Shown one piece after another: positions 2,235 through 62,749 of a stretch of DNA of 64,000 nt. Source of the stretch: Anaerobutyricum hallii (GTDB lineage: Bacteria > Bacillota > Clostridia > Lachnospirales > Lachnospiraceae); assembly GCF_900209925.1 (NCBI RefSeq), contig NZ_LT907978.1:2513001-2577000 (forward strand), in the 5' to 3' direction. The position numbers were made by a program, and so were the translations under genes. The notes beneath the pieces are model-generated. The model saw nothing but the letters and a program-made list of their open reading frames with translations. It was not told the origin of the DNA and did no database searches. How positions within the stretch are numbered: position 1 is the first letter of the stretch; every line of letters begins with the position of its first letter.

Positions 2235-2350
2235 GAAAAAAGAAAATATCCCCTATCCCAGATGCGGCTTCGGAGCGTATTTAAGATGCTCATCCGCATC
2301 TTAAATACGCTCCGAAGCCGCATCTGGGATAGGGGATATTTTCTTTTTTC
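2235..2350. repeat. Long palindromic repeat, family H copy 1 (perfect 55-bp arms)
   Basis: The arms 2235-2289 and 2296-2350 are exact reverse complements over 55 bp around a 6-nt loop TCATCC. An A-rich outer end (GAAAAAAGAAA) mirrors a T-rich outer end, so it could act as an intrinsic terminator on either strand. It begins 20 nt after the TAA of the S1-domain gene. Unlike the other four copies, which have an asymmetric inner left arm (CTCTGTAGTCGCTGT), both arms here carry the right-arm version. Confidence 0.9.
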
Positions 2351-2499
2351 TGACTGTGCAAATCTGCAGTTGGAAACGTAAGTGGTAAATAGTCCGTATC
2401 TGGATTTTACCTCCAACCAGTGCCATAATAGTCCTATGATTATTAAACGTCTTAAAAGTTCAGTACTCAATTTTTAGGACTGGTTAGGAGGCATTTCCT

Positions 2500-2619
2500 A
2501 TGAGTTCTATTACTACAGCGGTTGCTGCTGATTATCATTTACAGCAATGGGTTCAGTTGGTTAAACTGTTGATATGTTTTGACATTAAACAGGCTGAACA
2601 ACCGTTATCGCTCTCCTAA
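2500..2619 (+). pseudogene. Possible remnant of an IS66-type accessory gene (tnpA N-terminus)
   Basis: This is a 39-codon frame with a good ribosome binding site (TTAGGAGG) ahead of its ATG, encoding MSSITTAVAADYHLQQWVQL and about 19 more residues. The start resembles the N-terminus of the small IS66 helix-turn-helix protein, which is normally over 100 residues. It runs out at the end of the neighbouring nuclease gene and overlaps it by 35 nt. I read it as a decayed fragment. A genuine short peptide cannot be excluded. Confidence 0.3.
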
Positions 2620-3400
2620 CCTGTTCTACTGACAGTTTTGTGGTTCGCGATATCTTATCAAGATCATGTTCGCCTTCTGACCACAAATTCAGTGCTATAT
2701 CCATTCTTGCCTTAACATCAGCGTCATCACGCTCTCTGTCTACAATTTTCTGCATCGTTTCACACATTTCAGTCACTCCTTTCGGTTCTTCTTTAAAATA
2801 TCTGACTCTTTCTGCAATCTTAGGATTGTGCATCTCACGATAATCTTTACAGTTAAAATCATGCATCAGCCATCCAACTTTATCGTTTCCTCTATAAGAA
2901 CCATTCACATAAACAATATGTGCTTTGTCTCCGAACAATTCTCCTGTTTCCTGTATGGTTCTTTCTATTGTATATACCGAAAGTCCCCTCTTCAAAACAT
3001 CATTAGATGTAATAAAGATGATGTATGTTTCCGGCATTTCTTTATATTTTTCTCCTGATGTGGTAAGCCTTGAATCAAATAATGCACTGTTAAGTCTGGC
3101 TCGTTCGGGAACAGCACCACTATCATCCTGCTGAACTTCAATATCATACTGTTTCCCTGTAGCATCATTGGCGTAAATATCAAGCCTCACAGATCGTCCA
3201 AACAGATTTCCTATTGTCAACTGTGTAAGTGATTTTGTCACAGATAAATCATTTCTCTTTAATATTATTTTCAAAAGTTCTTCTGTACATTCTAAATCAC
3301 CTGAAAAAACCTGCGTCATAAAGGTATCATCCATTAATGTAAATTTGTTAATAGCCTCCATACGCTCTGTATTCTTTTCTTCCAGATTTAATACCTGCAT
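2585..3400 (-). CDS. PD-(D/E)XK nuclease family transposase (Rpn/PF12784-like)
   Basis: This is a 271-residue protein of the Rpn-like recombination-promoting nuclease / PD-(D/E)XK transposase group. The N-terminal part (KFTLMDDTFMTQVF...) and the core with RLDIYANDATGKQYDIEVQ match the family's D...ExQ nuclease signature, with catalytic Asp and Glu-x-Gln near residues 74 and 87. The C-terminal segment (about 240-265) resembles a short helix-turn-helix. The ribosome binding site is AGAAGGTGAG just before the ATG. Such genes are abundant and scattered in Lachnospiraceae; they act in DNA rearrangement rather than classical transposition. The gene looks intact and sits among degraded mobile sequence. 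Confidence 0.8.
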   Translation of the reverse strand: MQVLNLEEKNTERMEAINKFTLMDDTFMTQVFSGDLECTEELLKIILKRNDLSVTKSLTQLTIGNLFGRSVRLDIYANDATGKQYDIEVQQDDSGAVPERARLNSALFDSRLTTSGEKYKEMPETYIIFITSNDVLKRGLSVYTIERTIQETGELFGDKAHIVYVNGSYRGNDKVGWLMHDFNCKDYREMHNPKIAERVRYFKEEPKGVTEMCETMQKIVDRERDDADVKARMDIALNLWSEGEHDLDKISRTTKLSVEQVRRAITVVQPV

Positions 3401-3430
3401 TTTCTCACCTTCTTTTCTATATTATATCTA

Positions 3431-3787
3431 TTATCTGGTTTTTGCACAACTACATTTTTTGTCCGCTCCATCCCCTTCTAGCCTTGTTTTCCTTTCCTCA
3501 ACTCTCCTTTCCAAGTACCTCACAATACTCCTGAATCTCCTGCTGTTCTTTCCAAGGCCTGTTATTTGAATCCGACTTTTTATCATATCTGATATATCCG
3601 ATGGTATTTGATAAATAGAAAAAATTATATCATCTAAAGATGTTTGTATAGTTTTAATATGTGCACAAATTTCTGAAATTTGTTTTTTCCGTTCATCAAA
3701 TAATGGCAATAACTCCATTTGCTGAGAAGCTGTTAATTTTACTTTTTGCTTTTTTAATCCAACGCAAAAATCCTTATTAAAAATCAC
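3431..3787 (-). pseudogene. C-terminal remnant of a restriction-modification methylase-like protein
   Basis: The middle of this 118-codon frame (KLTASQQMELLPLFDERKKQ, then a helical stretch and DDIIFSIYQIP) resembles the very C-terminus of Eco57I-type DNA methyltransferase/restriction proteins, which end with a helix pair and a short 'YxLY-GLT' segment. No methyltransferase core (no NPPY motif) exists upstream. The last 50 residues after SDMIKSR do not continue that family and are Arg/Lys-rich. I call it a decayed fragment. Confidence 0.4.
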
Positions 3788-3993
3788 CTTATAAACCTTG
3801 TAAAACCTACATTTTTTATGTCAAATTTTATGTTTTTAATAATAAAGAATCGAACTAACGATGCCTTACATAAAACATTTGATTTTAGAACAGATTATGA
3901 ACTCATTACTAAGGCAACCATAAGAACTCTTATCAAAGACACAAAACAGATAAAATCAAAACTGAAATCCTAATTTGTAAATTTAGTATAGAC
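3788..3993 (+). other. Gap with a 47-codon frame, probably a decayed gene 3' end
   Basis: An ATG at 3830 opens 47 codons ending at TAA 3971-3973 (C-terminus KDTKQIKSKLKS). There is no convincing ribosome binding site and I recognise no family. The frame stops exactly 20 nt before hairpin H2, the same offset seen after real genes. That suggests it is the tail of a gene whose front has been lost. Confidence 0.3.
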
Positions 3994-4110
3994 GAAAAAA
4001 GAAACTATCCCCTATCCCATCTGCTCTGTAGTCGCTGTGTTTAAGATGCTCGTCCGCATCTTAAATACGCTCCGAAGCCGCATCTGGGATAGGGGATATT
4101 TTCTTTTTTC
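3994..4110 (+). repeat. Long palindromic repeat, family H copy 2
   Basis: This is a 117-bp hairpin with the loop TCGTCC at 4050-4055. The outer variable stem CTATCCCC pairs with GGGGATAT at one mismatch, and the invariant TATCCCA pairs with TGGGATA. The inner left arm (CTCTGTAGTCGCTGT) does not fully match the right arm, leaving an asymmetric internal loop. A-tract and T-tract borders are as in the other copies. Confidence 0.9.
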
Positions 4111-4329
4111 TGACTGTGCAAATCGGCAGTTGGGAACCATCTTCTGTAGTGAAACTTCCTTGTGGAGATTTTACAAATATTTATTGACTTTTATGTTACA
4201 TTATGTATATACTAATTTTTTAGTAACCATTGCTATATTATAATGAGATAGCGCAAAATGACAGATTCTATGATCTTACATCTAGAAGACTTAGAAAAAC
4301 GCTATTTTTCTTAATTTTTTAACTACACT

Positions 4330-4546
4330 AATATTATGATGTTAGGGTCAAAAAGTATTTTGCCCCTAACTTGATGCCACGAATTACTCCGCAGCTAATG
4401 CAGCTCCCGTAATTCTGAAACATTCAAAATCCGCTGATTTACTACGTAAATCGCTACTTTCTCATGTTCCGCGGGTCCCAAAGTCAAACACCTTATCGTA
4501 CAAGCACGAACGGCGTTTTGACCTTTTGACCCTGACATCATATTAT
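4330..4546. repeat. MITE-like element, family M (terminal repeats TGATGTYAGGGTCAAAA)
   Basis: The left end (4337) TGATGTTAGGGTCAAAA and the right end, read on the minus strand from 4540, TGATGTCAGGGTCAAAA form imperfect terminal inverted repeats. An internal hairpin built from AATTACTCCGCAGC and its imperfect complement lies near 4383-4420. The element has no coding capacity. It lies directly in front of crcB, with the crcB ribosome binding site just outside it. Partial relatives occur at 8614-8676, 30289-30371, about 31005-31035 and about 33950-33993. Confidence 0.7.
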
Positions 4547-4558
4547 CAGGAGACATTT

Positions 4559-4924
4559 ATGACAAATTGTATTGCTGTCGGACTCGGTGGTTTCATCGGA
4601 GCAACACTCCGCTATCTTATCGGATTAATTCCCGTCTGTGAAACCACCCTGTTTCCCGTCAAAACATTTTTTATCAACATCGCAGGCTGCATTGCTATCG
4701 CCCTTGTTGCCATGCTTGCCTCAAAAGGATCCATTTCAAATCCAAAGTTTATTCTTTTCTTAAAGACTGGAATTTGTGGGGGATTTACTACATTCTCAAC
4801 CTTTGCACTTGAATCCACCACTCTCATAAAAGAGGGACATCCTAAGGTGGCTTTTCTCTATATGGTGCTCAGCTTACTTGCAGGAGTATGTACGATTTTT
4901 GCAACGGAGTTAGTTCTAGAATAA
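4559..4924 (+). CDS. crcB: Fluoride channel CrcB/Fluc
   Basis: This 121-residue, four-helix membrane protein is the Fluc fluoride exporter, which works as an antiparallel dimer in the cytoplasmic membrane. Seen in sequence are GGFIGATLRY near the N-terminus, N-x-x-G in FFINIAGC, and the signature GGFTTFSTF around residues 75-83 with its phenylalanine and polar track. The ATG at 4559 is preferred over one 33 nt upstream because AGGAGA sits 6 nt before it. Only one crcB gene is visible, whereas many Firmicutes carry a pair. I do not recognise a fluoride riboswitch upstream; instead the MITE-like repeat occupies the leader. Confidence 0.9.
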   Translation: MTNCIAVGLGGFIGATLRYLIGLIPVCETTLFPVKTFFINIAGCIAIALVAMLASKGSISNPKFILFLKTGICGGFTTFSTFALESTTLIKEGHPKVAFLYMVLSLLAGVCTIFATELVLE

Positions 4925-5096
4925 AATTTTCCATAAGGAACAAATTTCTTGTTGCGGAATATTCCACATCTGATATAACTAAATTTCAAGTATACACAAC
5001 TATTAGAATGTCAGCCTTTTTGGATTTAATTCCATGGAAATCCATATCCTTCTGGAGAATCCCCATTCTTACCTAACTGTGGATTTGGAGTAGACA

Positions 5097-5213
5097 GAAA
5101 AAAGAAAAAATAATATATCCCAGATGCGGCTTGGGAGCGTGTTTAAGATGCGGACGAGCATCTTAAACACAGCGACTACAGAGCAGATGGGATATATTAT
5201 TTTTTCTTTTTTC
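5097..5213 (-). repeat. Long palindromic repeat, family H copy 3 (reverse orientation)
   Basis: Read on the minus strand it has the same layout as copies 2, 4 and 5: A-tract, private stem AATAATA, TATCCCA, the asymmetric CTCTGTAGTCGCTGT arm, loop, right arm and T-tract. The private stem is matched by TATTATT on the other side. It starts 19 nt beyond the TGA of the alsT-like gene, in the sense direction. It lies between that gene and the convergent crcB. The rest of 4925-5232 shows no gene; 5047-5075 carries the border motif CTTCTGGAGAATCCCC shared with the R repeats. Confidence 0.9.
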
Positions 5214-5232
5214 GTCTATACAAAATCTACAA

Positions 5233-6621
5233 TCAAGATTTAATTTTCTGGAATTCTTTCACATCTTTTGCGATTTCCCCACTCATAAGTATCATACAAA
5301 TAAGATTCGGTATTGCCATCAAAGCATTGGCAATATCGGAGAAGTTCCATACCAGTTCTAATGTCTGAGTTGCTCCAGTGTAAACTACAAGTGAGAAAAC
5401 AATTCGATAGATCATATTCCATTTATGGGTTCCCATTAAATATTCAAAAGCTTTTTCTCCATGATATTCCCATCCGAGTATTGTGGAAAATGCAAATAAG
5501 GCGATACCGATTGTTACGAGATAGCCACCTGCTTTTCCAAGTACTGTAGAAAAGGCTGCGATTGTTAAGGCAGAGCCGACATAAAGCTGGCCTGTTGACG
5601 GGTCAATCTGCCCAAGTACACCAGAACTTGCAATAGCAAGACCTGTGATTGTACAGACAACAATAGTATCCCAGAAGGTTCCGGTCATATTGATATATGC
5701 CTGCCTTACTGGATTGTCTGTTGTTGCCGCTGCGGCTGTAATGGCGGCAGATCCCATTCCCGCTTCATTTGAGAAGCAGCCTCGTGCTACACCGTAACGT
5801 GCTGCATTCATCATGGATGCTACGATATTTCCACACAAAGCACCACCTACTGCTTTCACACTAAATGCCATTTTAAATATCATAGCGATTCCTGCTGGAA
5901 GGTTATGTATATTTCCAAGAATGACGATAATTCCAGCAGCTACATAAAAAATAGCCATAACAGGGACTACTACGGAAGAAACTTTAGAAATGGTCTTAAT
6001 TCCCCCAATAATAATTAAAAGTGCGAGTACTGTGATCACGACACCGACCATCGTTACTGACACACCAAAGGTTGCGTGAACGGATGTTGCAATGGAATTT
6101 CCCTGTGTCATATTTCCAATACCAAAGGAAGCGATTACTGCAAACAGGGCAAACAGCCAGCCAAGTACTGCACCTAGCTTTTTATTTTTCAGCCCTTTTT
6201 TCATAGTATACATTGGTCCTCCGGACATTTCGCCTTTTTCGTTAACCTCTCTGTATTTAATCGCTAACATACATTCAGAAAATTTAGAAGAAAGCCCAAA
6301 ACAGGCAGATATCCACATCCATACTAATGCTCCTGCTCCACCAGAAACCATAGCAGTTGCAACACCTACGATATTGCCGGTTCCGATTGTTGCCGCAAGA
6401 GCGGTTGTAAGTGCCGAAAACGGGGAAACATCTCCTGTTCCACGACTCTTTGTTCGTGCCTCTTTACTCAGAGTCTTTTTTAATGCCCATGGAAGATTTC
6501 TCCATGTAAGAAAGTTACAGCGAACCGTTAAAAGTACTCCTGTTCCGACTAAAAGAACTAACATGACTGGTCCCCAGACAAATGCATCAATCTGGGCTAC
6601 CATTTTACTTATACTTAACAT
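5233..6621 (-). CDS. Alanine/glycine:cation symporter (AGCS family)
   Basis: This 462-residue integral membrane transporter is of the AGCS family (AlsT/AgcS), taking up alanine or glycine with Na+ or H+. Family marks are the GTGNIVGVATAMVSGGAGALVWMW stretch (about residues 98-121, including the signature G-T-G-N-I), the SGGPMYTM segment (about 152-159) and SNEAGMGSAAI (about 283-293), which line the substrate and sodium sites. Around eleven hydrophobic helices are evident and the length is typical. A TTTCTCTCCTC stretch on the plus strand gives a GAGGAGAG ribosome binding site. It is separated from the upstream tarJ by a terminator, so it is transcribed alone. The substrate is not resolved by sequence. 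Confidence 0.9.
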   Translation of the reverse strand: MLSISKMVAQIDAFVWGPVMLVLLVGTGVLLTVRCNFLTWRNLPWALKKTLSKEARTKSRGTGDVSPFSALTTALAATIGTGNIVGVATAMVSGGAGALVWMWISACFGLSSKFSECMLAIKYREVNEKGEMSGGPMYTMKKGLKNKKLGAVLGWLFALFAVIASFGIGNMTQGNSIATSVHATFGVSVTMVGVVITVLALLIIIGGIKTISKVSSVVVPVMAIFYVAAGIIVILGNIHNLPAGIAMIFKMAFSVKAVGGALCGNIVASMMNAARYGVARGCFSNEAGMGSAAITAAAATTDNPVRQAYINMTGTFWDTIVVCTITGLAIASSGVLGQIDPSTGQLYVGSALTIAAFSTVLGKAGGYLVTIGIALFAFSTILGWEYHGEKAFEYLMGTHKWNMIYRIVFSLVVYTGATQTLELVWNFSDIANALMAIPNLICMILMSGEIAKDVKEFQKIKS

Positions 6622-6672
6622 CTTTCTCTCTCCTCTCTTTTTTCGGATTTCCTATATATCAGAAAATAACAA

Positions 6673-6700
6673 AAGGAGCAACGAATATTCGTTGCTCCTT
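6673..6700 (-). terminator. Intrinsic terminator after tarJ
   Basis: A perfect 28-nt palindrome built on GGAGCAACGAA and its complement is followed on the minus strand by a T-rich run (TTTTGTTATTTT). It lies between tarJ and the alsT-like gene. Confidence 0.8.
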
Positions 6701-6814
6701 CAACTTATGAATCAAGTATATCATATATGACAAGTATGTCAATATGCAATTTTCACTTAAGATTCCTTCATTTTCACTTTCAGGTTATCTGTCCTGCAAA
6801 AAGAAAAGGATTCT

Positions 6815-7840
6815 CTACTTATTCCATATCATGATAGTTTTACCCATCATCTTATTAATATCCATCTCAAAAGCCTTAGTCATATCTGCAATAGAACTAA
6901 CTTCAACCTGCGCTCCCACGATATTACTAAGGTAACCGAGAATCTCCGGATACTCCTGATATAATTCCACTGTTTTTTCAAAATCAGCTCTTCCGCTTCG
7001 GCTGCTTCCATAAAGATGAAGCCCCTTCTCTAATACCATACGTGTATTAATAGGAACCGCATATTCAGAAACACCAAGAAGTGCGATTGTTCCTTCTGGC
7101 TGAATAAGATCGATCATCTGATCGATTGCCTTTTGGGATGCATCTCCACCTACGCACTCGATTGCATGATCAATCGTCAGTCCCTCTGGAATCTCCCATA
7201 CCAGATGGGTCTCATCGGCAAAAGTGAAGCTGCTAAGCTTATCTTCATTCGTTCCAAAGATAATAAGCTTCGTATCCGGATGCATATACCGGAAAAATAC
7301 AGCGGTAATATAACCAAGATTACCATCTCCCCAGATTCCTACAACGTTCCTTCTTGCATGAGTAAAACGTTCAAATCGGCGGAGAGCATGTACGCTGACA
7401 CTGACAATCTCTGTAAATGCTGCTACAGTTCTGTCAATATCCTGTGGTAAGCGAACCAGTCTGTCTCTGTCTAAAGCGACATTATCCTGCATAAAACCAT
7501 CAAAACCGCTTGCGCGGAACTTAGAACTTCTCAAATAATTCTCTGCAATAATATCATCTTTCTCAACTGGTGTATTCGGAATCATAACAACCAGTTCCCC
7601 TGGTTTAAATTCTCCTGTCGCATCATAAACTACATCGCCAATCGCTTCATGAATCAGAGCCATCGGCAGCTTCTTCGCCATAACATCTGCCGGACGTGTT
7701 CCCTGATAATAGCGCTGGTCCGCATGACAGATAGATAAATGTGTCGGACGCACAACTACCTTGTCACTATTTAAATCAATATCATTAAATGCTACTTCAA
7801 ATCTTCTGGGTGCTACCAGACGATACACTGTATTCAACAT
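6815..7840 (-). CDS. tarJ: Ribitol-5-phosphate dehydrogenase (TarJ-like, medium-chain dehydrogenase)
   Basis: This 341-residue zinc-type medium-chain alcohol dehydrogenase most resembles TarJ, which reduces ribulose-5-phosphate to ribitol-5-phosphate with NADPH. The N-terminal catalytic domain shows SICHADQRYYQG (metal/catalytic Cys near residue 38) and ALIHEAIG (His-Glu). The Rossmann part has GIWGDGNLGYIT at about residues 167-178. It starts immediately after tarI ends (7840/7841), so the two are co-transcribed and translationally coupled. TarI then activates the product to CDP-ribitol. No polymerase or glycerophosphotransferase genes for a ribitol polymer are nearby. Confidence in the family is high; the exact substrate rests on the pairing with tarI. 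Confidence 0.85.
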   Translation of the reverse strand: MLNTVYRLVAPRRFEVAFNDIDLNSDKVVVRPTHLSICHADQRYYQGTRPADVMAKKLPMALIHEAIGDVVYDATGEFKPGELVVMIPNTPVEKDDIIAENYLRSSKFRASGFDGFMQDNVALDRDRLVRLPQDIDRTVAAFTEIVSVSVHALRRFERFTHARRNVVGIWGDGNLGYITAVFFRYMHPDTKLIIFGTNEDKLSSFTFADETHLVWEIPEGLTIDHAIECVGGDASQKAIDQMIDLIQPEGTIALLGVSEYAVPINTRMVLEKGLHLYGSSRSGRADFEKTVELYQEYPEILGYLSNIVGAQVEVSSIADMTKAFEMDINKMMGKTIMIWNK

Positions 7841-8551
7841 TTATTTATCTTCTCCTTTAATCAACGTTTCAGCAACTCGTAAGTCATATGGATAAGTGAT
7901 CTTAATGTTAAAAACTTCTCCTTCTACCAGATGTACATCCTGTCCTTTAATAACAAAAATCTTGCAGGCATCTGTAAGAATCTCTTTCTCTTCTTCTGTC
8001 AGACCTTCATAAAGCTCTTTTAACTTCTTCGCCTTGAAAGACTGTGGAGTCTGTCCCTGATACATAACAGAACGATCAGGAATATTGCTGATGACCTCGT
8101 GACCTACGCTCTCTACGATAGTATCAGAAGCAGGAATAACTGTATCACATGCACCATATTCCTGTGCATAACGAATGTTATCTTCAATAATACGATATGT
8201 CAGGAACGGACGAACGGAATCATGTGTTACAATAATCGTATCATCATCCAGACCATATTCTTTTTCAATATAACGAATAGAGTTCATGATCGTCTCATTA
8301 CGAGTAGAACCACCCTCGATTACTACAATCTTACTATCATCATTAAAGTTCTTCTTCACCAGATTCTTCGTATGGTTAATCCACTGAGAAGGACAAAGTA
8401 CGATCAGCTTCTCAAACTTACTGTTCACATAAAACTTCTCTAATGTGTGAAGAATGATCGGCTTGCCACCAACATTAAGGTACTGCTTTGGCTTCTCAAC
8501 ATTTCCCATTCTGCTGCCGATTCCTCCGGCTAAAATTACTCCAAAAACCAT
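7841..8551 (-). CDS. tarI: Ribitol-5-phosphate cytidylyltransferase (TarI; IspD family)
   Basis: This 236-residue nucleotidyltransferase joins CTP to ribitol-5-phosphate, giving CDP-ribitol for cell-surface polymers. The N-terminal CTP-binding loop reads LAGGIGSRMG (about residues 7-16) followed by KPKQYL. The central HDSVRPF and the later TPQSFK segments are IspD/TarI hallmarks. IspD (methylerythritol phosphate pathway) shares the fold, but the adjoining TarJ-type dehydrogenase argues for TarI. It is first gene of a two-gene operon. The ribosome binding site AGGAGG lies just upstream of ATG at 8551. Confidence 0.87.
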   Translation of the reverse strand: MVFGVILAGGIGSRMGNVEKPKQYLNVGGKPIILHTLEKFYVNSKFEKLIVLCPSQWINHTKNLVKKNFNDDSKIVVIEGGSTRNETIMNSIRYIEKEYGLDDDTIIVTHDSVRPFLTYRIIEDNIRYAQEYGACDTVIPASDTIVESVGHEVISNIPDRSVMYQGQTPQSFKAKKLKELYEGLTEEEKEILTDACKIFVIKGQDVHLVEGEVFNIKITYPYDLRVAETLIKGEDK

Positions 8552-8613
8552 TTGCTCCTCCTTTTGTTCAAGGGAAAAATCCCTTTTTATACATAAAGTA
8601 ATATAGCGTTATC

Positions 8614-8676
8614 AATCAAACATCTTATCGTGCAAGCACGAACGATATTTTGACCTTTTGACCCTGACATCATCAT
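8614..8676 (+). repeat. Partial copy of MITE-like family M (right end)
   Basis: It matches the last about 65 bp of the element at 4330-4546: TCAAACAYCTTATCGT, then CAAGCACGAACG, and TTTTGACCTTTTGACCCTGA. No left end is present. It occupies the gap between tarI and the HD protein, where no gene is seen. Confidence 0.65.
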
Positions 8677-8787
8677 ATACCAGATTAGGGTATCATGTCA
8701 ATTAAATTACTTTTTTAACATTGTCGGTTATTTCTTTATAATTCAGGAATATCTCTATATCTGGATTGCCTGTTATTTTTGAATTTC

Positions 8788-9294
8788 CTAAGACCTTCTT
8801 TCCGTTAAAAATAACGTCTCAAGATACTTCATTCCTGTTTTTGTTTTAAAAATGTTTTCCCTCACTTTTTCGGCTGTTTCTCTGCTGCTTCCGTCTTCGA
8901 ATAGATTTACTAAGAAGTCGGCTTCCACAAGAATCTGATAATCCTCTCCTTCTATTCCTGTATAAGTATGGTGATGAGCGATAAGGAATAGTACCCGGTC
9001 AATGACTGCTTCGTCGTATCCAAGTGCGCATAACATTGGTTCTGCTACAGCCGGACCTTCTTTTTCCTGATATTTTCCGCCAGAACTTCCGTACTTTTTT
9101 TCACTTATTTTAATTCCGATATCATGAACAATCGCTGCGGTTCTGAGAATATGCAGCTTTTCCGACTCTAATTCTTCCGATTCACCAATTAACTTCGCAA
9201 ATTCATACACTTTTAAAAAGTGCTGCACTCTCTTCGGATCTCCTGCATAATATTCCATCATCTTTTCGATTAGTTTTCTGTCTTGTTTATTCAT
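8788..9294 (-). CDS. HD domain phosphohydrolase-like protein
   Basis: This 168-residue protein has an HD metal-binding domain: H in VQHFLKVYEFA, HD in AAIVHDIGI, a paired HH in LIAHHHTYTG and D in ILVEADFLV. This order (H...HD...H...D) is that of small HD hydrolases of the uncharacterised phosphohydrolase type. A substrate such as a nucleotide or ppGpp is not predictable. The ATG at 9294 is preferred over the longer frame because AGGGAGG lies about 10 nt upstream. It stands alone between repeats. Confidence 0.8.
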   Translation of the reverse strand: MNKQDRKLIEKMMEYYAGDPKRVQHFLKVYEFAKLIGESEELESEKLHILRTAAIVHDIGIKISEKKYGSSGGKYQEKEGPAVAEPMLCALGYDEAVIDRVLFLIAHHHTYTGIEGEDYQILVEADFLVNLFEDGSSRETAEKVRENIFKTKTGMKYLETLFLTERRS

Positions 9295-9474
9295 TATATT
9301 ATGTCCTCCCTGGGCTGTAAAACCAACCTTCATCATTTGCATCATATTGATCGCATTTTCCTGATAATCTAAAACATTGATAAAGTAATTTTAACATGAA
9401 ATTTTTCTATCGTAAAATGTATATTTTTCATCATGGTCTCACATCTTAACTATTGATTCGGTTTCAGTAACAAT

Positions 9475-9530
9475 ATGTACTCACGAAATCAAACACAAAA
9501 GCAAGTGCAAGAAAGACTCCGAGAGTACAT
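9475..9530 (+). repeat. Short palindromic element, family P, copy 1
   Basis: This 56-bp unit runs from ATGTACTCACGAA to TCCGAGAGTACAT. Its reverse complement matches the 57-bp unit at 21699-21755 along most of the length, including the inner CACAAAA and CAAG blocks. It ends 8 nt before the ribosome binding site of the DUF421 gene. Confidence 0.75.
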
Positions 9531-9551
9531 TAATTCCTTAAGGAGGTTTTC

Positions 9552-10259
9552 ATGAATATTTTATATGTTATCCTGCTTTCTGTTTTTTCTCTCATTGTTC
9601 TTTTTCTTTTAACGAAGCTCATCGGTTATCGTCAGATGTCTGAAATGAGTATGTTTGATTATATCAGCGGTATTACGATTGGTTCGATTGCCGCTGAGAT
9701 GGCAACCGCTCTTGATTCGAGTTTTTTAGAACCACTTACTGCTATGATTGTGTACGGACTTATAACCGCTCTGCTTGCTTTTATCACAAGTAAAAATATG
9801 AAAATTCGACGTTTTATTTCAGGTTCTCCATACATTTTGTTTAATGATGGACATTTATATGAAGGAAATTTTAAAAAAGGACATATCGACCTGTCCGAAT
9901 TCCTCGTGCAGTGCCGTCTGAATGGATTTTTTGATTTGAAAGAATTACAAACCGCAATTCTTGAAGAGAATGGAAGAATTAGTTTTCTTGCAAAATCCGA
10001 AAACCGCCCCGCTTGCCCTTCCGACTTAAATCTCACTCCTGAAAAAGAATGGCTGCTCCCAACTTATGTAATGGACGGAGAAATTCTTTATGAGAATCTC
10101 CTTCATTCAGGAAAGGACGAAGAATGGCTAAAAAAGCAACTTTCTTCCCATGGATGCAAACGTCTTTCTGATGTTTTCCTTGCAACAGGAAACCAGCAAA
10201 ACACCTTAAATGTTTATTTGAAAAATAATAGAAGCGGAAGCAGTGTCATAAAAGAATAG
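9552..10259 (+). CDS. DUF421 (YetF/YrbG-like) membrane protein
   Basis: This 235-residue protein matches the YetF/DUF421 family. It has two to three N-terminal membrane helices (residues about 5-70), with KLIGYRQMSEMSMFDYISGITIG between the first two, a family hallmark, and a cytoplasmic C-terminal domain with SGSPYILFNDGHLYEGN-type sequence. In Bacillus spores YetF-type proteins contribute to a germinant-related membrane complex (5AF/FigP-type association with SpoVAF); whether that holds here is inference. The ribosome binding site AAGGAGG lies 7 nt before the ATG. The P repeat lies just upstream. Confidence 0.85.
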   Translation: MNILYVILLSVFSLIVLFLLTKLIGYRQMSEMSMFDYISGITIGSIAAEMATALDSSFLEPLTAMIVYGLITALLAFITSKNMKIRRFISGSPYILFNDGHLYEGNFKKGHIDLSEFLVQCRLNGFFDLKELQTAILEENGRISFLAKSENRPACPSDLNLTPEKEWLLPTYVMDGEILYENLLHSGKDEEWLKKQLSSHGCKRLSDVFLATGNQQNTLNVYLKNNRSGSSVIKE

Positions 10260-10301
10260 AGAACTTTATACGATATTTTTGAAAGTTTTTATCATTTTTA
10301 C

Positions 10302-10330
10302 TTCACAAATTGAATCTTCTCTGTTATAAT
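10302..10330 (+). promoter_or_regulatory. Probable sigma-A promoter of the 2-oxoacid oxidoreductase operon
   Basis: TTCACA (10302-10307), a 17-bp spacer and TATAAT (10325-10330). About 210 nt of leader follow before the first ATG at 10544. Confidence 0.6.
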
Positions 10331-10335
10331 TGATT

Positions 10336-10488
10336 CGTTTCTATCATAAATCGGCATTTCTCTTGTTTTTATTTCCTTTATTTTCAGTCCGGTTTATGAT
10401 AGTACATAAATTTTATAAGAATTCATATATAAGGCTTTTTTAAACAATGATTTTTTATGCAATTACCATTGTTTATATTTTTTGCGTC
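10336..10488 (+). promoter_or_regulatory. Structured leader with two hairpins
   Basis: One hairpin is formed by CTATCATAAATCGG and CCGGTTTATGATAG (about 10340-10402). A second is AAACAATG paired with CATTGTTT followed by a T-rich run (about 10443-10483), like an intrinsic terminator. The order suggests attenuation of the operon, but I do not recognise a known riboswitch class. Confidence 0.4.
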
Positions 10489-10543
10489 TTTTTTCCGTGC
10501 ATGGCGGACATGAGTTTTTAATAGGAATACATTGGAGGTTAAC

Positions 10544-11330
10544 ATGAAAGATTTAGTTGAAATCCGTTGGCATGGACGCGGCGGTCAGGGTGCAGGCTTA
10601 CCGCATCGCAGAACATAAAGATGTTCGTCTTCCTATTATGATCTGTCAGGACGGCTTCATCACAAGCCACGCTGTAGAAAATATCGAATTATTAGAAGAC
10701 GATATTGTAAAAACTTTTGTTGGTGAATATGAACCAGAACATTACTTACTGAAAGATAACGAACCATTTGCTGTCGGTCCTTATGCCGTTACAAACTATG
10801 TTATGGAAGCAAAACGTGCTCAGATGCAGGGACTCCGTAATGCAAAACAGGTTACCCTTGATGTGGCAAAAGAATTTGAAAAAATTTCCGGACGTTCCTA
10901 CGGATTATTTGAAGAATACCGTATGGAAGATGCAGACTATGCCATGGTCATCATTGGATCTGCCGCCGGAACAGGAAAAGATACTGTAGATATGCTTCGC
11001 AAACAGGGAGTTCGTGCCGGACTTTTAAAAATCCGCCTTTTCCGTCCATTCCCTGCAGAAGAAATCGCAGAAGCCCTTAAAAATGTAAAATATCTCGCGA
11101 TCATGGATCGTACCGAAGATTACAATGGTCACTGTGGTCCTCTTGATGCAGAAATCAAATCTGCTCTTTACAACGCAGACCTTCACCCAGCTACATTAAA
11201 CTACTGCTATGGTATCGGTGGTCGTGATGTTACTGTAGAAAGCCTCGCTTCTGTTTTTGAAGATTTAAAAACTGTCGAGGAAACAGGCAAGCTCGGTGAA
11301 ACTTACCGTTATTTATCTGTCAGAGAATAG
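10544..11330 (+). pseudogene. porG-porA deletion fusion (2-oxoacid:ferredoxin oxidoreductase gamma start joined to alpha C-terminal part)
   Basis: The ATG at 10544, with ribosome binding site TTGGAGG, begins a gamma subunit (MKDLVEIRWHGRGGQGA). After GGTCAGGGTGCA the sequence jumps to the alpha subunit in another frame: QAYRIAEHKDVRLPIMICQD and on to the alpha C-terminus RYLSVRE at 11330. The gamma frame stops at 10618. What is missing is the rest of gamma, the small ferredoxin-type delta gene that normally lies between, and roughly the first 150 residues of alpha (the pyrimidine-binding half). A continuous frame from a TTG at 10557 gives 257 residues but cannot make a working alpha subunit. 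The beta gene downstream is intact. This is either a real deletion or an assembly collapse. Confidence 0.85.
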
Positions 11331-11341
11331 GGGAAACAATC

Positions 11342-12274
11342 ATGGCTTATAATTTAAAACAAACATTAAATAAAGAAGAACGTTTATCACCAGGCCATAG
11401 AATGTGTGCCGGATGTGGCGCTACCATCGCTGTACGAAATGTACTGCGCGGCCTTCACGAAGAAGACGAAGCCGTTATCACCTGTGCAACCGGATGCCTT
11501 GAAGTATCCTCCTTCATGTATCCATACACCGCATGGAAAGATTCTTTTATTCATAACGCTTTCGAAAATGCCGGAGCAACCTGCAGTGGAGTAGAAGCTG
11601 CCTATCGTGCTTTAAAGAAAAAAGGAAAAGTAAAAAACACTCATAAATTCATCACTTTCGGTGGTGACGGCGGTACATACGATATCGGATTCCAGTCTTT
11701 ATCCGGTGCAATGGAACGAAATCATGATATGGTTTATGTTTGTTACGATAACGGTGCTTACATGAACACCGGTATCCAGCGTTCCTCTGCAACTCCAATG
11801 TACGCTGATACAACAACCACACCTGTTGGTTCCGAATCTGACGGAAAAGCACAAAACAGAAAAGATCTGACTCAGGTAATCGCCGCACATAATATTCCTT
11901 ATGTTGCACAGACCACCTTTGTACAAAACTTTAAAGATCTGCACACAAAAGCAGAAAAAGCAATCTATACCGAGGGAGCCGCCTTCTTAAACGTTATGGC
12001 TCCATGCCCACGAGGCTGGCGCTACAACACCCCTGATATTCTTGAAATATGTCAGCTTGCAGTAGACACCTGCTTCTGGCCATTATTTGAAGTCATTGAC
12101 GGTAAATGGATCGTAAACTACGTTCCAAAGAAAAAGCTCCCAATCGAAGACTTCTTACGTCCACAAGGAAGATTCAAACATTTATTCAAACCTGGAAAAG
12201 AAGAATTAATCGCAAGAATCCAGGCAGAGGTTGATAGGAAATGGGAAGAACTTTTGGCAAGAGCTAACTACTAA
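11342..12274 (+). CDS. porB: 2-oxoacid:ferredoxin oxidoreductase beta subunit (PorB-like)
   Basis: This 310-residue thiamine-diphosphate-binding beta subunit belongs to pyruvate (or related 2-oxoacid):ferredoxin oxidoreductase. It shows the CAGCGATIAVRNV and ATGCLEV segments with the conserved cysteines that hold a 4Fe-4S cluster, and the thiamine motif GGDGGTYDIGFQS...N (about residues 108-140). A later Cys lies in APCPRGW. It starts 11 nt after the truncated alpha frame, so it was the last gene of a gamma-delta-alpha-beta operon. With alpha truncated it has no complete partner in the window; catalysis needs alpha for thiamine binding. It is followed at 20 nt by hairpin H4. Confidence 0.9.
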   Translation: MAYNLKQTLNKEERLSPGHRMCAGCGATIAVRNVLRGLHEEDEAVITCATGCLEVSSFMYPYTAWKDSFIHNAFENAGATCSGVEAAYRALKKKGKVKNTHKFITFGGDGGTYDIGFQSLSGAMERNHDMVYVCYDNGAYMNTGIQRSSATPMYADTTTTPVGSESDGKAQNRKDLTQVIAAHNIPYVAQTTFVQNFKDLHTKAEKAIYTEGAAFLNVMAPCPRGWRYNTPDILEICQLAVDTCFWPLFEVIDGKWIVNYVPKKKLPIEDFLRPQGRFKHLFKPGKEELIARIQAEVDRKWEELLARANY

Positions 12275-12294
12275 TTTGTAGATTTGGTGTAGAC

Positions 12295-12411
12295 GAAAAA
12301 AGAAAAAACACTCTATCCCATCTGCTCTGTAGTCGCTGTATTTAAGATGCTCATCCGCATCTTAAACACGCTCCGAAGCCGCATCTGGGATAGAGTGTTT
12401 TTTCTTTTTTC
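12295..12411 (+). repeat. Long palindromic repeat, family H copy 4
   Basis: It has the standard H layout with private stem AACACTC matched by GAGTGTT and invariant TATCCCA/TGGGATA. It begins 20 nt after the porB stop. The flanks add an outer imperfect inverted repeat (CTAATTTGTAGATTT against AAATCTACAGTTAG). The likely role as porB terminator is inferred. Confidence 0.9.
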
Positions 12412-12562
12412 TGACTATCTAAATCTACAGTTAGTAAGAATGGGGATTCTAGGTTTCTGGATAATCCCCTCTTCCCATCAGACTCCAATACCAATTCCCA
12501 TCTGGAGCCAAAGAACAGAAAAGCAGAAATTTTATATTAAATAGAATGTGATGTCGGAGCAA

Positions 12563-12594
12563 ATAAAAATGCCGAACAGGCATTTTCTATGAAG
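12563..12594 (-). terminator. Intrinsic terminator of the 53-residue gene
   Basis: On the minus strand AATGCC, loop TGTTC, GGCATT is followed by TTTATTT. It sits inside a wider inverted repeat, AAATAGAATGTGA (about 12539) against TCACATTCTATTTA (about 12604). Confidence 0.7.
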
Positions 12595-12614
12595 TGACTA
12601 TCTTCACATTCTAT

Positions 12615-12776
12615 TTAATCCTGAAGACTTGCTTCTATATCTGCAATCTCTTCTAAATATTCTTTTTCGAGTCTTTTGTAATCTCCTTCTCTCAGTACTT
12701 CCAGTTTATTTTTCAGATAAGTAAGCTGCTTTCTCAATTCATGTTTAAATTGCACATCTGTTGGCATTTCAACCAT
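12615..12776 (-). CDS. Small 53-residue helical protein
   Basis: The frame encodes a 53-residue, charged, probably all-helical or coiled-coil protein beginning MVEMPTDVQFKHELRKQLTY. It has a full transcription unit of its own: promoter at 12809-12837, ribosome binding site (AAGGCGG for the first ATG, or AAAGGATGG for a second ATG three codons in), and a terminator. It has length similar to Spo0E-type regulators but lacks their SQELD motif, so I do not assign it. Function unknown. Confidence 0.65.
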   Translation of the reverse strand: MVEMPTDVQFKHELRKQLTYLKNKLEVLREGDYKRLEKEYLEEIADIEASLQD

Positions 12777-12808
12777 CCTTTCACCGCCTTCCAATTATTT
12801 TTACTATA

Positions 12809-12837
12809 ATTATAGCGGATTTAAAATACTCTGTAAA
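12809..12837 (-). promoter_or_regulatory. Sigma-A promoter of the 53-residue gene
   Basis: On the minus strand: TTTACA (12837-12832), a 17-bp spacer and TATAAT (12814-12809), about 33 nt before the start codon. Confidence 0.65.
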
Positions 12838-12993
12838 CTTCTTACTGAAACTTTTATAAGCCCAATCCTTAATTTACATTATATTCCAGTCTCTGTATTT
12901 TGTCAATATTTGTATTCAAAGTGCATTTAGAACTATTTTCATTTTTCAAATCCCATCTCATATTTCCATAGTAAACTCTGATAATATATAAAA

Positions 12994-13062
12994 AATACTT
13001 TCTATAAGATACACGTTACAACTTATAAATGCTTTCTGCAAGATGTGCGTTACAATTTGTAG
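12994..13062. repeat. Two tandem 34-bp imperfect units
   Basis: AATACTTTCTATAAGATACA... is repeated 34 bp later as AATGCTTTCTGCAAGATGTG..., both ending in CGTTACAA and a TTATA/TTGTA. No gene lies here; 12840-13330 otherwise shows nothing I can assign. Confidence 0.5.
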
Positions 13063-13330
13063 GAATTCTTTTTCAGACACGCTCTAGTATAGCATCCATT
13101 TAGTAATAATAGTTTACGGATAGTCATTTGGCAGTTCACAATAAAAGATGCATAAATGAATGTGACTAGGCTATGTCCAACCGTACTTTAGAAACTAGAT
13201 GGATGGAACACTAGCTATTCATTCTTTATGTCAGTCCTTCGAAAATCAACTCCGCAGAAAGTATCAACCTTCTGGTAATTTCCCGAATCCCCCAACATTA
13301 AATAGTAATTTCATCCCCAGCCCAAAAACA

Positions 13331-13457
13331 GCTCACGAAGAGAGAAGGCATCCTATATTTGTGGCCTTAGAACGAGGATTAAATGTAAACGTTTAAGCGA
13401 ACATTTAACCCGCAGTGATAGAGTCACAAATATAGGATGCCTTCTCTCTTCGTGAGC
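13331..13457. repeat. Long hairpin with perfect 33-bp arms (family G)
   Basis: 13331-13363 and 13425-13457 are exact reverse complements (GCTCACGAAGAGAGAAGG... outward). Between them an asymmetric region encloses an inner stem, ATTAAATGT against ACATTTAA. The design (long outer stem, bulge, inner stem, loop) mirrors the H family but the sequence is unrelated. It lies 22 nt beyond the yqeY stop. Confidence 0.8.
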
Positions 13458-13478
13458 GTCTCCCTTGCCTGCGGCAAA

Positions 13479-13925
13479 TTACTTCAACATTGAAGCAACC
13501 ATCTGGTTTACAAGCTTACCATCAGCCTTACCTTTTACCTTCGGCATGAGGTCTTTCATAATCTTACCTCTGTCTTTACCAGTTGGTTCTGTAATTCCAA
13601 GTTCATCAAGTACAGACTGTATCGTTGCCTTAATTTCGTCTTCACTCATCTGCTTTGGAGCAAATTCTTCATAAACAGCAATTCTCAGTTTACACTGGTC
13701 GATAATATCTGTACGGTCTGCCGGAGACATCTCCATCGTATCTTTGCACTGTTTGATTTCTTTTGCAATAATACTATTCTCTTCTGCCTCTGTTAAATCT
13801 TCTCTCTTATCAATTGCCTTTGCCTTTAAAGCACCAAGAAGCATGGATAATGCATCTTTTCTTTCTTTATCTTTTGCTTTCATTGCTGCGTACATTGCGG
13901 TACGGACTTCTTCGATTTTACTCAA
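13479..13925 (-). CDS. yqeY: GatB/YqeY domain protein
   Basis: This 148-residue protein is the same length as Bacillus subtilis YqeY. It is helical with the C-terminal GatB/YqeY tail signature (GKIMKDLMPKVKGKADGKLVNQMVA). Related domains bind tRNA in the GatB amidotransferase; the stand-alone protein is thought to be tRNA-associated, function not settled. The TTG at 13925 is chosen because GAAGGG lies 7 nt upstream and the length then fits the family; an in-frame TTG 18 nt earlier has no ribosome binding site. It is transcribed alone. Confidence 0.87.
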   Translation of the reverse strand: MSKIEEVRTAMYAAMKAKDKERKDALSMLLGALKAKAIDKREDLTEAEENSIIAKEIKQCKDTMEMSPADRTDIIDQCKLRIAVYEEFAPKQMSEDEIKATIQSVLDELGITEPTGKDRGKIMKDLMPKVKGKADGKLVNQMVASMLK

Positions 13926-14039
13926 CTTAAACCCTTCTTTCAAATAGTATAATCGTTATTCAAATAAAACTCTACTACTATTTCCAACCAAAATCAAGGG
14001 GGAATTCTTCAAATACTAATTTGTAGATTTCGTGTAGAC

Positions 14040-14156
14040 GAAAAAAGAAACAATACCATATCCCATCTGCTCTGTAGTCGCTGTGTTTAAAATGCTCGTT
14101 CGCATCTTAAACACGCTCCGAAGCCGCATCTGGGATATGGTATTGTTTCTTTTTTC
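14040..14156 (+). repeat. Long palindromic repeat, family H copy 5
   Basis: Private stem AATACCA is matched by TGGTATT; invariant parts are as in the other copies except one base in the inner stem (AAAATGC against GCATCTT). A TAA lies 20 nt upstream (14017-14019), the family's constant offset, although no complete gene ends there. The right flank (about 14187-14232) is similar to 62198-62250. Confidence 0.9.
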
Positions 14157-14333: not shown

Positions 14334-14712
14334 CTTCTGGAGAATTTTTTCTCTGGTTAACTCTCATAATCTTCTGGAGAATCCCCTTCTCTTTCCAACA
14401 GAAATAACTAATTCGCTATTTGTTGTTAAACTATCAGCCGCTGAAATAAAATTTTATGCTGAATTGTAGGAAAACTATGGTAAAGCAAAAAGAATTGTTA
14501 TAAGTATTGCATTTTGTGACTTTGCGCTGTGGAATTTTGACTCTGAAAACTTCGGACTCATTTTTCCGAAGTTTTCGTTTTTTGAGGCAAAATGAAGCGT
14601 TTAGCGCAACGGAACAAAATCTAACTTATAACCATTCTTTTTTCTTAGAAGACCCCGTACAAGTCAGCTCAATATCTTCTACTAAAGCGGCGTCTGTGTC
14701 CCCAGCAAATTA
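14334..14712 (-). repeat. Large palindromic repeat, family R copy A (abuts leuS stop)
   Basis: It is homologous to 62361-62749. Core stems include AAAAGAATTGTTATAAGT against ACTTATAACCATTCTTTT (about 14488-14646), ATTTTGT/ACAAAAT, TTGCGC/GCGCAA and an apical hairpin GAAAACTTCGG/CCGAAGTTTTC. Outer inverted ends are GCTGAATTGTA and TACAAGTCAGC. Reading in the sense of leuS, it starts within a few bases of the leuS stop codon. No coding frame. Function unknown. Confidence 0.85.
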
Positions 14713-30251: not shown

Positions 30252-30288
30252 ATGTTTATATTCAGGGAATCATTTTCCCTGTTATTTT

Positions 30289-30371
30289 CAGAATTACGGT
30301 AGCAGCGTTAGCTACGGAGTAATTCATAGTATCAAGTTAGTGGTAAAATACCTTTTGAGCCTAATATCATT
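30289..30371 (-). repeat. Partial copy of MITE-like family M (left end)
   Basis: Read on the minus strand it matches 4337-4425: GATATTAGGCTCAAAAGGTA, then ACTAACTTGAT and GAATTACTCCGTAGCTAACG. It lies between spoVAC and the hypothetical gene, where no gene is seen. Confidence 0.65.
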
Positions 30372-30440
30372 ATATATTACTGGGAATTACTTTGCAAAAT
30401 ATTTTATTATTTCTGTATTATTTTTACATACTATTTTCTT

Positions 30441-31240: not shown

Positions 31241-32307
31241 TTGATTGCCGCATTACGATCTCTGTCCATCTTATTTCCACACACACAGTAATAGACTCTT
31301 TCGGATAATTTCAGCTCTTTCTTTATCCTTCCACATTTACAGCATTTTTTACTGGAAGGAAAGAAACGGTCTACCTTTACCATTTTCTTTCCTTTCCATG
31401 CCAACTTATAGTCTAACATTTCCCTGAACATTCCATATCCATTATCCTGTACGCTTTTTCCGAAATGCAGGCACTGACCCATTGCTTTCATATCGATATC
31501 TTCCACTGCAACTGCATCATAACCGTCTGCAATTTTTCGGCTAAGCTTGTGCAGATAATCTTTTCGCTGATTTCGTATCTTTTCATGACATCTGGCAACT
31601 TTCTTTTTCTGCAGTTCATAATTATGGCTTCCCCGTACGCATCTTGACAACTTTCGCTGCTCCCTCGCCAGTCTTTTTTCATTTTTTCTGAAAAATCCTG
31701 CTTCTTCCGTCTCAACCTTTTCTGAAAACACTGCCATCCCCTGCATTGCATAATCAATCCCAAGTATCTTTGCAGTACTGTAATCCGGTCCAGCTGCTTG
31801 GTTTTCACAGCTGTATCCTTCATAAAGCAGGCTTGCAAAGTATTTTCCGGATGGTTCCATACTGACTGTCACTGATTTCAGGTGAAGGTCTTCTGCTGGC
31901 TCCCTGTGTTTTTTCATGGCAATCCATTTTAATTTAGGAAGCCGGATCCGCTTACTTTCCACCAGGATATTTCCATTGACCACATTCGTTGTATAGCTGT
32001 TTTTGGAATGATGTTTTGACTTAAACCTTGGAAATCCAATCTTGGAATCCCGAAAAAAATTCTTATAGGCCTTTTCCAGATGAAGCTGGACATTTGCCAG
32101 CGCCAGCGAATCTACTTCCTTCAGAAATGGATATTCCTTTTTATACATGGCCGGTGTATTTTTTAACATTTTCTTCGTCTTTTCATACTCCCGGATCTTA
32201 TCATTAAGCATCTGATTATACAGAAAACGACAACAGCCAAATGTTTTTCCAAGAAGTATCTTCTGTTCTTCTGTCGGATAAATTCGGAAACGATATGCTA
32301 TGTTCAA
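31204..32307 (-). CDS. tnpB: TnpB RNA-guided endonuclease (intact)
   Basis: This 367-residue TnpB has an N-terminal helix-turn-helix (MNIAYRFRIYPTEEQ...), a wedge region, and a RuvC nuclease split into three motifs: Asp in ILGIDYAMQ (near residue 193), Glu in VAVEDIDM (near 270) and Asp in DRDRNAAINI (near 350). A CxxC...CxC zinc finger (CCKCG, YYCVCG) lies between the last two. All catalytic residues are present, so it may be an active nuclease. Start is TTG overlapping the shifted tnpA TGA. It cuts at target sites adjacent to the element's insertion motif when guided by right-end RNA. Confidence 0.92.
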   Translation of the reverse strand: MNIAYRFRIYPTEEQKILLGKTFGCCRFLYNQMLNDKIREYEKTKKMLKNTPAMYKKEYPFLKEVDSLALANVQLHLEKAYKNFFRDSKIGFPRFKSKHHSKNSYTTNVVNGNILVESKRIRLPKLKWIAMKKHREPAEDLHLKSVTVSMEPSGKYFASLLYEGYSCENQAAGPDYSTAKILGIDYAMQGMAVFSEKVETEEAGFFRKNEKRLAREQRKLSRCVRGSHNYELQKKKVARCHEKIRNQRKDYLHKLSRKIADGYDAVAVEDIDMKAMGQCLHFGKSVQDNGYGMFREMLDYKLAWKGKKMVKVDRFFPSSKKCCKCGRIKKELKLSERVYYCVCGNKMDRDRNAAINIREEARRMLTA

Positions 32308-62360: not shown

Positions 62361-62749
62361 TCTTCTGGAGAATTTTTCTCTGGTTAACTCTCAGAATCTT
62401 CTGGAGAATCCCCTTCTCTTTCCAATATAAATCACTAATTTGCTATTTGTTATCAAAACCAGACAGCCACTGAAATAAAATTTTATGCTGAATTGTAAGA
62501 AGACTATGATAAAGAAAAAAGAATGGTTATAAGTATTGCATTTTGTGACTTTGCGCTATGGAATTCTGACCATAGGAACTTGGGACTCGTTTTTCCCAAG
62601 TTCCTGTTTTTCTGGGCAGAATGGAATGCTTAGCGCAACGGAACAAAATCAAACTTATAACCATTCTTTTTTCTTTAGAAGACTAACTACAATTCAGCAC
62701 AATATCTTCTACATAAAGCGGCGTCTGTGTCCTCAGCAAATTAGTATTT
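62361..62749 (-). repeat. Large palindromic repeat, family R copy B (abuts purC stop)
   Basis: It is homologous to 14334-14712. Outer stem is a perfect 20 bp (AAAAAAGAATGGTTATAAGT against its complement). The apical hairpin is GGAACTTGGG/CCCAAGTTCC and the next stem ATTCTG/CAGAAT; both differ from copy A but stay paired. Inverted ends TGCTGAATTGTA/TACAATTCAGCA. It starts at the purC stop, in sense. The gap 62073-62360 has no gene; 62150-62256 resembles the right flank of H copy 5. Confidence 0.85.

Follow-up and report, generated by a model that had tools for sequence, protein, structure and literature searches.

In Anaerobutyricum, a genus of gut commensals, a 64,000-nucleotide stretch of the Anaerobutyricum hallii genome (assembly GCF_900209925.1, contig NZ_LT907978.1, forward-strand positions 2,513,001 to 2,577,000; hereafter the window, from a genome of one 3.52-Mb contig) was found to contain five long hairpins of one family, family A. 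They were present at 2235-2350, 3994-4110, 5097-5213 (reverse), 12295-12411 and 14040-14156, the places given in a preliminary description, whose length of 117 bp was found in four of the copies whereas the copy at 2235-2350 contained 116 bp. The opposite arms were complementary as described, with 0, 1, 0, 0 and 0 mismatches over the outer 25 bp of the five copies. The four stem segments, described as independent, were found to be fewer, the copies at 2235 and 3994 containing an identical right arm. Pairing was kept throughout the family although the sequence varied: in an alignment of 101 of the 102 distinct 117-nt copies (left out: L074:1071-1187), which favours arms of equal length, 99.0% of the cells were paired with G-U counted as paired, and 21 of 38 pairs were changed on both sides. 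The pattern points to repetitive extragenic palindrome (REP)-like gene-end hairpins in which one arm serves as the template for re-copying the other, mainly by template switching, with the loop, the tract and the ends held fixed, a reading to which a probability of roughly one half is given.

The copy at 2235-2350 (minus strand, orientation from its flanks) was found to be fully symmetric, with 55-nt arms 100% complementary; its left half, internal loop included, was the exact complement of its right half, and it gave a weaker covariance-model match, on both strands. The private segment of its left arm (2246-2254) pairs with 2331-2339, the arms being identical once complemented, and the stop of an S1-domain gene (1489-2214) was found 20 bp before the copy. 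The copy at 3994-4110, on the minus strand (the strand carrying GGAGC..AGCGACTA), is the one with an outer-stem mismatch, and no open reading frame (ORF) of at least 100 aa was found to end beside it. The copy at 5097-5213 (plus strand) was located 19 bp past the stop of a sodium:alanine symporter gene (5233-6621, minus strand); at this site the sister species contains no A element and its gene end differs. The copy at 12295-12411 (minus strand) was located 20 bp past the stop of a thiamine pyrophosphate (TPP)-enzyme gene (11342-12274), and its gene-side end (ACTAATTTGTAGATTT.., 12266-12290, plus strand) includes the TAA stop of that gene (12272-12274), at which the sister species carries a D-type hairpin. 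The copy at 14040-14156 (minus strand) was found upstream of a YqeY-like gene (13479-13943, minus strand), and together with the copy at 3994 it forms the exception to gene-end placement among the five. Sequence similarity among these copies runs past the borders first given for them (172 nt).

The other hairpins of the window belong to further families. A family C copy (core 12537-12614, plus strand) was found by model R1 (70.5 bits, E 9e-17) and by a pattern and arm search, followed by a family D copy at 13331-13457 (plus strand; model R1 76 bits at 13350-13434), which contained 33-nt arms 100% complementary and its own private stem 21 bp past the YqeY-like stop. All seven of these elements were matched by the shared model (E <=0.01) within the first 14.2 kb, and positions 14200-64000 were without any. 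Two family E repeats, with a different core and a T-tailed apical hairpin and without assigned strand, were found at 14485-14644, downstream of leuS, where the sister species has a D element, and at 62514-62673. The predicted RNA fold of 12270-12440 gave a z-score of -12.8, none of 200 shuffles being as good, and the fold z-scores of the A element strand were about -12 to -14 against shuffles.

Further copies, the lack of which would have counted against the preliminary description, were found in number: at least 130 of family A in this genome instead of five. The loci bearing L-numbers are stretches of this genome or of the sister genome (G017, Anaerobutyricum hallii DSM 3353). A set of 100 stretches around pattern and blast places, 91 from this genome and 9 from G017, contained together with the window 135 A copies with a normal core (130 in this genome and 5 in the sister species), of which 132 were parsed, with 65 distinct left-arm strings, and 3 remained unparsed. 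Both normal core anchors were required, which leaves symmetric or strongly changed copies (window 2235, L095, L055) outside the 135. The parsed arms contained no mismatch in 89 copies, one in 24, two in 7 and three in 1, and the remaining 11 copies had arms of unequal length. A subfamily whose left arm is one base longer (AAATAATACATCCC type) comprised 12 copies, 7 of them perfectly paired, its loci including L014, L015, L030, L056, L060, L066, L082, L083 and L097. Inverted A pairs about 440-760 bp apart were observed in L010, L014, L052, L074, L090 and L094, with a C hairpin between the two copies in L010 and an E repeat in L094.

When hairpins with paired arms around the shared core were sought, 113 proved to be of family A and 34 had other stems, these being families B, C and D and a singleton F; one of the 34, labelled F (L042:1437), is an A-like variant. 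There are at least four families (A-D) with different stems, a common internal loop (GAGC-like / AGYGA), common end motifs (CA..CGTC) and a common gene-end place, usually no more than 40 bp past a stop codon. The structural alignment of 31 hand-picked elements contained an outer stem, an internal loop (left side with invariant GA.C, right side with invariant AG.GA), an inner stem and an apical loop. In this alignment 82.1% of the cells pair, 20 of 27 pairs were changed on both sides, and covariation was 0.418 against 0.151 after shuffling and at most 0.133 with slid partners; one of five measures, further pair types, did not rise above the shuffles (33 vs 36.4, 487 of 500 as high). Family E was inspected only, as 62 entries, many of which are one copy read on both strands; its apical T-tailed hairpin (window 14544-14577 and others) resembles an ordinary terminator and varies among copies with pairing kept.

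The covariance model of the 31 elements gave at least 150 matches in this genome and at least 150 in A. hallii DSM 3353 (150 of 150 candidates in each). No match was found in the other 395 of 397 genomes of the family or in the other 391 of 392 genomes of the order, with 12 candidates per genome scored under stricter filters. A strict core pattern gave 56 matches in this genome, 1 in G017, 0 in 22 other genomes of the genus and 0 for the reversed control. Among 23 other genus genomes the element was found in G017 only, many of them being fragmented and few near complete, which makes absence weak evidence. In a genome collection that may omit the window's own genome, the C/F core pattern had no match and the A pattern matched A. 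hallii DSM 3353 alone. The A element was unmatched among phage and plasmid records, and scans of viral contigs with the element patterns gave nothing apart from the D-core pattern in 2 contigs, judged to be chance since model R1 finds no element there. No Rfam family was found at or above its curated score for the hairpins, the only such match in the window being Clostridiales-1 at 4372-4540; in seven loci compared with Rfam by E-value, all element matches were below the curated score and were mostly to microRNA families.

The hairpins measure about 117-136 bp and contain a conserved internal loop. Near invariance across the 132 aligned A copies was found in the A/T-tract, in TATCCC, in the end bases and, bar one C/G site, on either side of the internal loop; the stem segment lying between the A-tract and TATCCC varied, as did the apical loop and the flanks. 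Segment-mismatch and haplotype counts refer to the 129 copies of this genome out of the 132, and in the same 129 the pairwise diversity (pi) was 0.355 in the left and 0.347 in the right private segment and 0.248 in the apical loop, against 0.01-0.05 in the border, TATCCC and the internal loop. The flanks gave 0.324 and 0.405, values raised by the two alternative contexts that they combine. The unpaired ends are CA ahead of the stem and CGTC behind it in A; most copies of B and D agree, those of C less often. CGTCT was present in 128 of 132 A copies, and GTC followed the stem in 26/29 copies of B, 22/30 of D and 13/36 of C (GTT in 11/36), among copies with an extendable stem; the C of the CGTC end can also pair with the G of the opposite end. 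The CA end was CAG in 129 of 132 A copies, ACA/GCA in 27/29 of B and 23/36 of C, and ACA/CCA in 25/30 of D, the preceding base being variable.

Placement was scored on the strand with GGAGC, for open frames of at least 300 nt. On the right side of A a frame was found to end within 38 bp in 87 of the 112 copies with such a frame (132 examined), against 1 of 78 within 40 bp on the left side. The other families contained the same polarity: a stop within 60 bp was present on the gene side in 10/14 (B), 15/24 (C) and 20/25 (D), and on the other side in 2/20, 0/25 and 1/20, respectively (26, 38 and 31 copies examined). Several copies contained the stop codon inside the repeat's own end. The hairpins probably end transcripts or protect mRNA 3′ ends, as their position and shape suggest.

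The match between the arms was found to exceed by far that expected for arms drawn from a common pool. The A segment contained 3.7% mismatches with G-T counted as a mismatch, against 34.9% when arms were randomly re-paired between copies. In the alignment of 101 copies (the remaining 27 of 129 being duplicates or of other lengths) 234 cells were changed on both sides, and covariation was 0.205 against 0.077 after shuffling, reached by 0 of 500 shuffles, and at most 0.042 with slid partners. At pair 12/106 of this alignment UA was present in 44 copies, AU in 43, CG in 9, GC in 3 and others in 2. Family D, with 33 copies and 29 distinct left arms, was perfectly paired over 26 bp in 23/33 and contained positions with all four pair types, and over the same length 14/30 copies of B and 20/40 of C were perfect, with 12 more of each containing one mismatch. 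For the Mantel and cell counts of B, C and D, copies with more than 6 mismatches were dropped (B 1/30, C 5/40, D 3/33) and identical copies were counted once. Left and right arms were correlated with r 0.88 in A and 0.954 in D, whereas arm and core were not: r 0.018 in A (178 of 500 shuffles as high), a low value that is weak evidence alone since the A core has few variable sites, and r -0.028 in D (280/500). The arms of A and D thus co-vary with each other and not with the core, and linkage does not explain their match.

These results would be accounted for as follows. Hairpins dispersed around the genome, mostly just past stop codons and in one orientation, would be read from the gene as a long hairpin, the 3′ arm of which ends in TTTCTTTTTTC in family A. 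During DNA synthesis the strand would fold back and one arm would be re-copied from the other by template switching; for imperfect palindromes such repair is termed quasipalindrome correction. Any mutation or indel newly arisen in one arm would thereby reach the other arm in one step. Selection, or the need to stay mobile, would preserve the A/T-tract, TATCCC, the internal loop and the ends, and the middle of the stem would drift freely in sequence, not in pairing. The reading draws on the diversity of the A middle segment, which equals that of the flanks while border, TATCCC and loop stay conserved, on the low mismatch of true arms, on the co-variation of the arms with each other and not with the core in A and D, on the four pair types found at one position with few mismatches, and on the lead of transversion-type steps among paired A haplotypes. 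It draws further on orthologous insertions changed on both arms, a compensated indel, converted copies, outer-stem mismatches without G-U bias, and the gene-end placement. The preliminary description had implied a choice between a terminator under pairing selection and a mobile palindrome that rewrites its stem; both can hold at once, and the third cause, an arm copied from the other arm during DNA synthesis, fits better.

The main rival is stepwise selection for pairing alone, under which the hairpins are terminators or mRNA protectors, each change is later restored by a second mutation, and unpaired intermediates are removed. Strong covariation, the gene-end placement, the nearly invariant T-tract, a G-T excess on one strand of the A inner stem and the linkage of B and C stems to the core are all as this explanation has it; against it, a paired segment as diverse as the unpaired flanks is not expected. 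Single-pair steps among the 43 fully paired A haplotypes were found to be of transversion type in 35 cases and of transition type in 20, which is not as a path through G-U predicts (B contained 3 and 2, respectively). The outer stems contained no G-U preference on the mRNA strand (28 vs 23 mismatches, p 0.58); the 23/28 count covers 9 segment positions of A in the 132 copies together with the other families, and with all 25 outer A pairs (20 G-T, 15 A-C) it would become 29/32. The inner-stem G-T excess is antisense to the adjacent gene, whose mRNA would therefore carry A-C mismatches. A compensated indel at an orthologous site also speaks against it, and converted loops are not to be expected under it. 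Pairing selection as the whole explanation is considered rather unlikely, and it may act together with template switching.

Comparison of the same sites in the two species bears on how the stems change. At seven orthologous gene ends the family present was found to differ between the two species, the elements being located at the stop or no more than a few tens of bases from it. These gene ends are those of the TPP enzyme, the S1-domain protein and leuS, and L095/L163, L022/L226, L179/L161 and L237/L190. The orthologous sites examined mostly hold another family, none of them yielding a clean empty site. Where both species have the same family at a site, the stems differ: the arms of the D copy L151/L152 differed at ten positions each, of which eight pair in either species, while the core had few changes and the junctions were the same. 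L212/L166 contained one base in one species and two in the other, in both arms and with pairing kept, and the A copy L069/L101 contained two adjacent compensated transversions plus some uncompensated changes. L055 (981-1150, this genome), the ortholog of L100 in the sister genome, was found to be a chimeric hairpin of two right halves with unmatched arms, which possibly arose by deletion between two inverted copies.

Exchange between copies is a further candidate: stems or whole elements would be swapped by ectopic gene conversion or by re-insertion from a pool of subfamilies, and old compensation would be reshuffled. The seven gene ends with different families, the end motifs common to the families and chimeric copies such as L055 agree with it. 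A partial swap, however, breaks pairing, and the core and arms of A and D are unlinked; the D ortholog L151/L152 keeps its junctions, and the origin of the 43 fully paired A haplotypes is left unexplained. Exchange between copies as the explanation is regarded as improbable.

A small number of copies were found to contain what appear to be conversion footprints. The window copy at 2235 and L095 each have a half that complements the other, internal loop included, and a tract that stops at the border. L095 keeps a G-T mismatch in the inner stem, so copying probably began further out. In the E copy L193 the asymmetric internal loop was replaced by the complement of the opposite side, and in L047 (1 of 132 aligned A copies) the apical loop was inverted. 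Converted halves, an erased loop and an inverted loop are traces to be expected after template switching, though few in number.

The symmetric copies with a tract ending at the border (window 2235, L095) would also be expected if the second arm were written on mobilisation, a single-stranded intermediate being folded and copied so that one arm and the loop pass to each new insertion; the resemblance of the end motifs to those of tagged REPs, as far as these are described in PMC3733652, and the constant orientation to genes agree with this. Stems nevertheless differ at insertions with shared junctions, which makes a new insertion unneeded, and the internal loop would be lost every time if fold-back copying started at the apex. 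No enzyme was found for such a step: Y1 transposases, with 7 matches here and 6 in G017, are present in 16 of 24 genus genomes, beyond the two carriers, and a Y1 transposase as the mobiliser is unsupported. Of the 13 matches 4 were examined (two in the window, L197 and L206); none of these is flanked by elements, the nearest of which lies 1.1 kb away. Writing on mobilisation is held to be very improbable.

Several observations weigh against template switching as the main cause. Under it the asymmetric internal loop should be lost as well, but a half matched to the other was found in only 2 A copies, and a strong upkeep of the loop must therefore be assumed. The arms of B and C are linked to the core (r 0.705, 1 of 500 shuffles as high, and r 0.208, 0 of 500), which says that some stems spread as subfamilies and argues against any one simple rule. 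In C (6 vs 2) and D (3 vs 1) transition-type steps are the more frequent, in small numbers, and one A-G mismatch type is common in B (11 cells). The A inner stem contained 70 G-T against 15 A-C mismatches on the GGAGC strand, which resembles pairing selection; if it is selection, it acts on the strand antisense to the adjacent gene, as RNA or single-stranded DNA, and the excess may stem from few events. Uncompensated copies, which the preliminary description took as evidence against its account, persist as a minority: L055 joins two right halves whose arms differ, and in L056 as in L094 the left segment differs from the right one. The changes are placed on no tree and are thus unpolarised, ectopic conversion between copies may be the alternative, and no transposase is tied to the elements as judged from the surroundings of the 4 Y1 matches. 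The mixed flank contexts and the few variable core sites mentioned above belong here as well.

A broader proposal is that of a mobile hairpin whose stem sequence as such is not inherited: only the loop, the ends and one arm would be passed on, and the second arm would be written from the first by fold-back copying, in place or on mobilisation. This is considered unlikely; the mobility of the hairpins is itself putative. If it were true, a shape would be heritable with a free-running sequence, and gene ends would swap hairpins like cassettes.

Repeats of the REP/RAYT (REP-associated tyrosine transposase; REPIN) kind are mobilised by a dedicated Y1 transposase which the repeats flank. Among repeats described in the sources seen in part, the nearest known kind are the CGTC-tagged REPs. 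These contain stems of 8-9 bp, loops of 4-5 bp and a unit of 20-40 bp, with two unpaired ends, one of them CGTC and the other a CA/CCA-like tail that is mostly CCA, and are without a known dedicated transposase according to the sections consulted of Di Nocera et al. 2013 (PMC3733652), where GTAG-type REPs are described as supplying stop codons by their ends. In common with CGTC-tagged REPs as presented there, the hairpins contain a palindrome and a CGTC end, and occur in many copies and several families per genome close to ORF 3′ ends, whereas their length and conserved internal loop differ and their size lies outside that given for the kind (PMC3733652). Firmicutes, clostridia and arm-by-arm compensation were unmentioned in a text search of PMC3733652. 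With stem-loop repeats of the enterobacterial repetitive intergenic consensus (ERIC) type they share dispersal, a mostly intergenic position and a common secondary structure, as far as Cozzuto et al. 2008 (PMC2267715) was covered; in contrast, compensation and covariation were unmentioned there by text search.

Hairpins created or maintained by template switching are described, in rRNA and other RNA genes, in the portions consulted of Monttinen and Loytynoja 2022 (PMC8794818), whose authors term the strongest evidence for stem maintenance circumstantial. Multi-base compensation, stem fixing and loop inversion by one templated event are features in common with those cases, whereas here hundreds of parallel non-coding copies are present in one genome (PMC8794818). 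In the titles and abstract openings of the literature searched, which covered subscription journals little, neither these hairpins nor repeats in Anaerobutyricum were described.

An intrinsic (rho-independent) terminator is a hairpin followed by an unpaired U-tract in the transcript. The A copies likewise contain a stable hairpin and a T-tract just past the stop codon, but their T-tract, though conserved, lies inside the stem and is paired with the A-tract. A simple terminator scan does not flag them, its rules suiting short stem-loops and being uninformative for such long stems.

The elements bear on whether compensatory stem changes arise by stepwise selection or by a single templated event, since one genome contains well over a hundred parallel family A stems, with more in the other families, and the conserved and free parts stand side by side, for which the two models give different, countable predictions. 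Strong covariation, usually taken to support a functional RNA, may arise by DNA copying. For genome biology, two close species are seen to differ in the hairpin that the same gene ends carry, and tagged REPs may exist in a long form in Firmicutes.

Other features were found around the hairpins of the window. Y1 (IS200-type) transposase matches were present at 852-1157, with an in-frame TGA, and at 32380-32685, and near them positions 1-300 and 31529-31828 were found to be 96% identical. A PD-(D/E)XK nuclease family transposase gene (Pfam PF12784; 2585-3400, minus strand) was located between two A copies. The Clostridiales-1 RNA (Rfam RF01699, 116 bits; 4372-4540, minus strand) was likewise located between two A copies, and stretches neighbouring or overlapping it were found to recur at 8616-8678 and, inverted, at 30286-30375.

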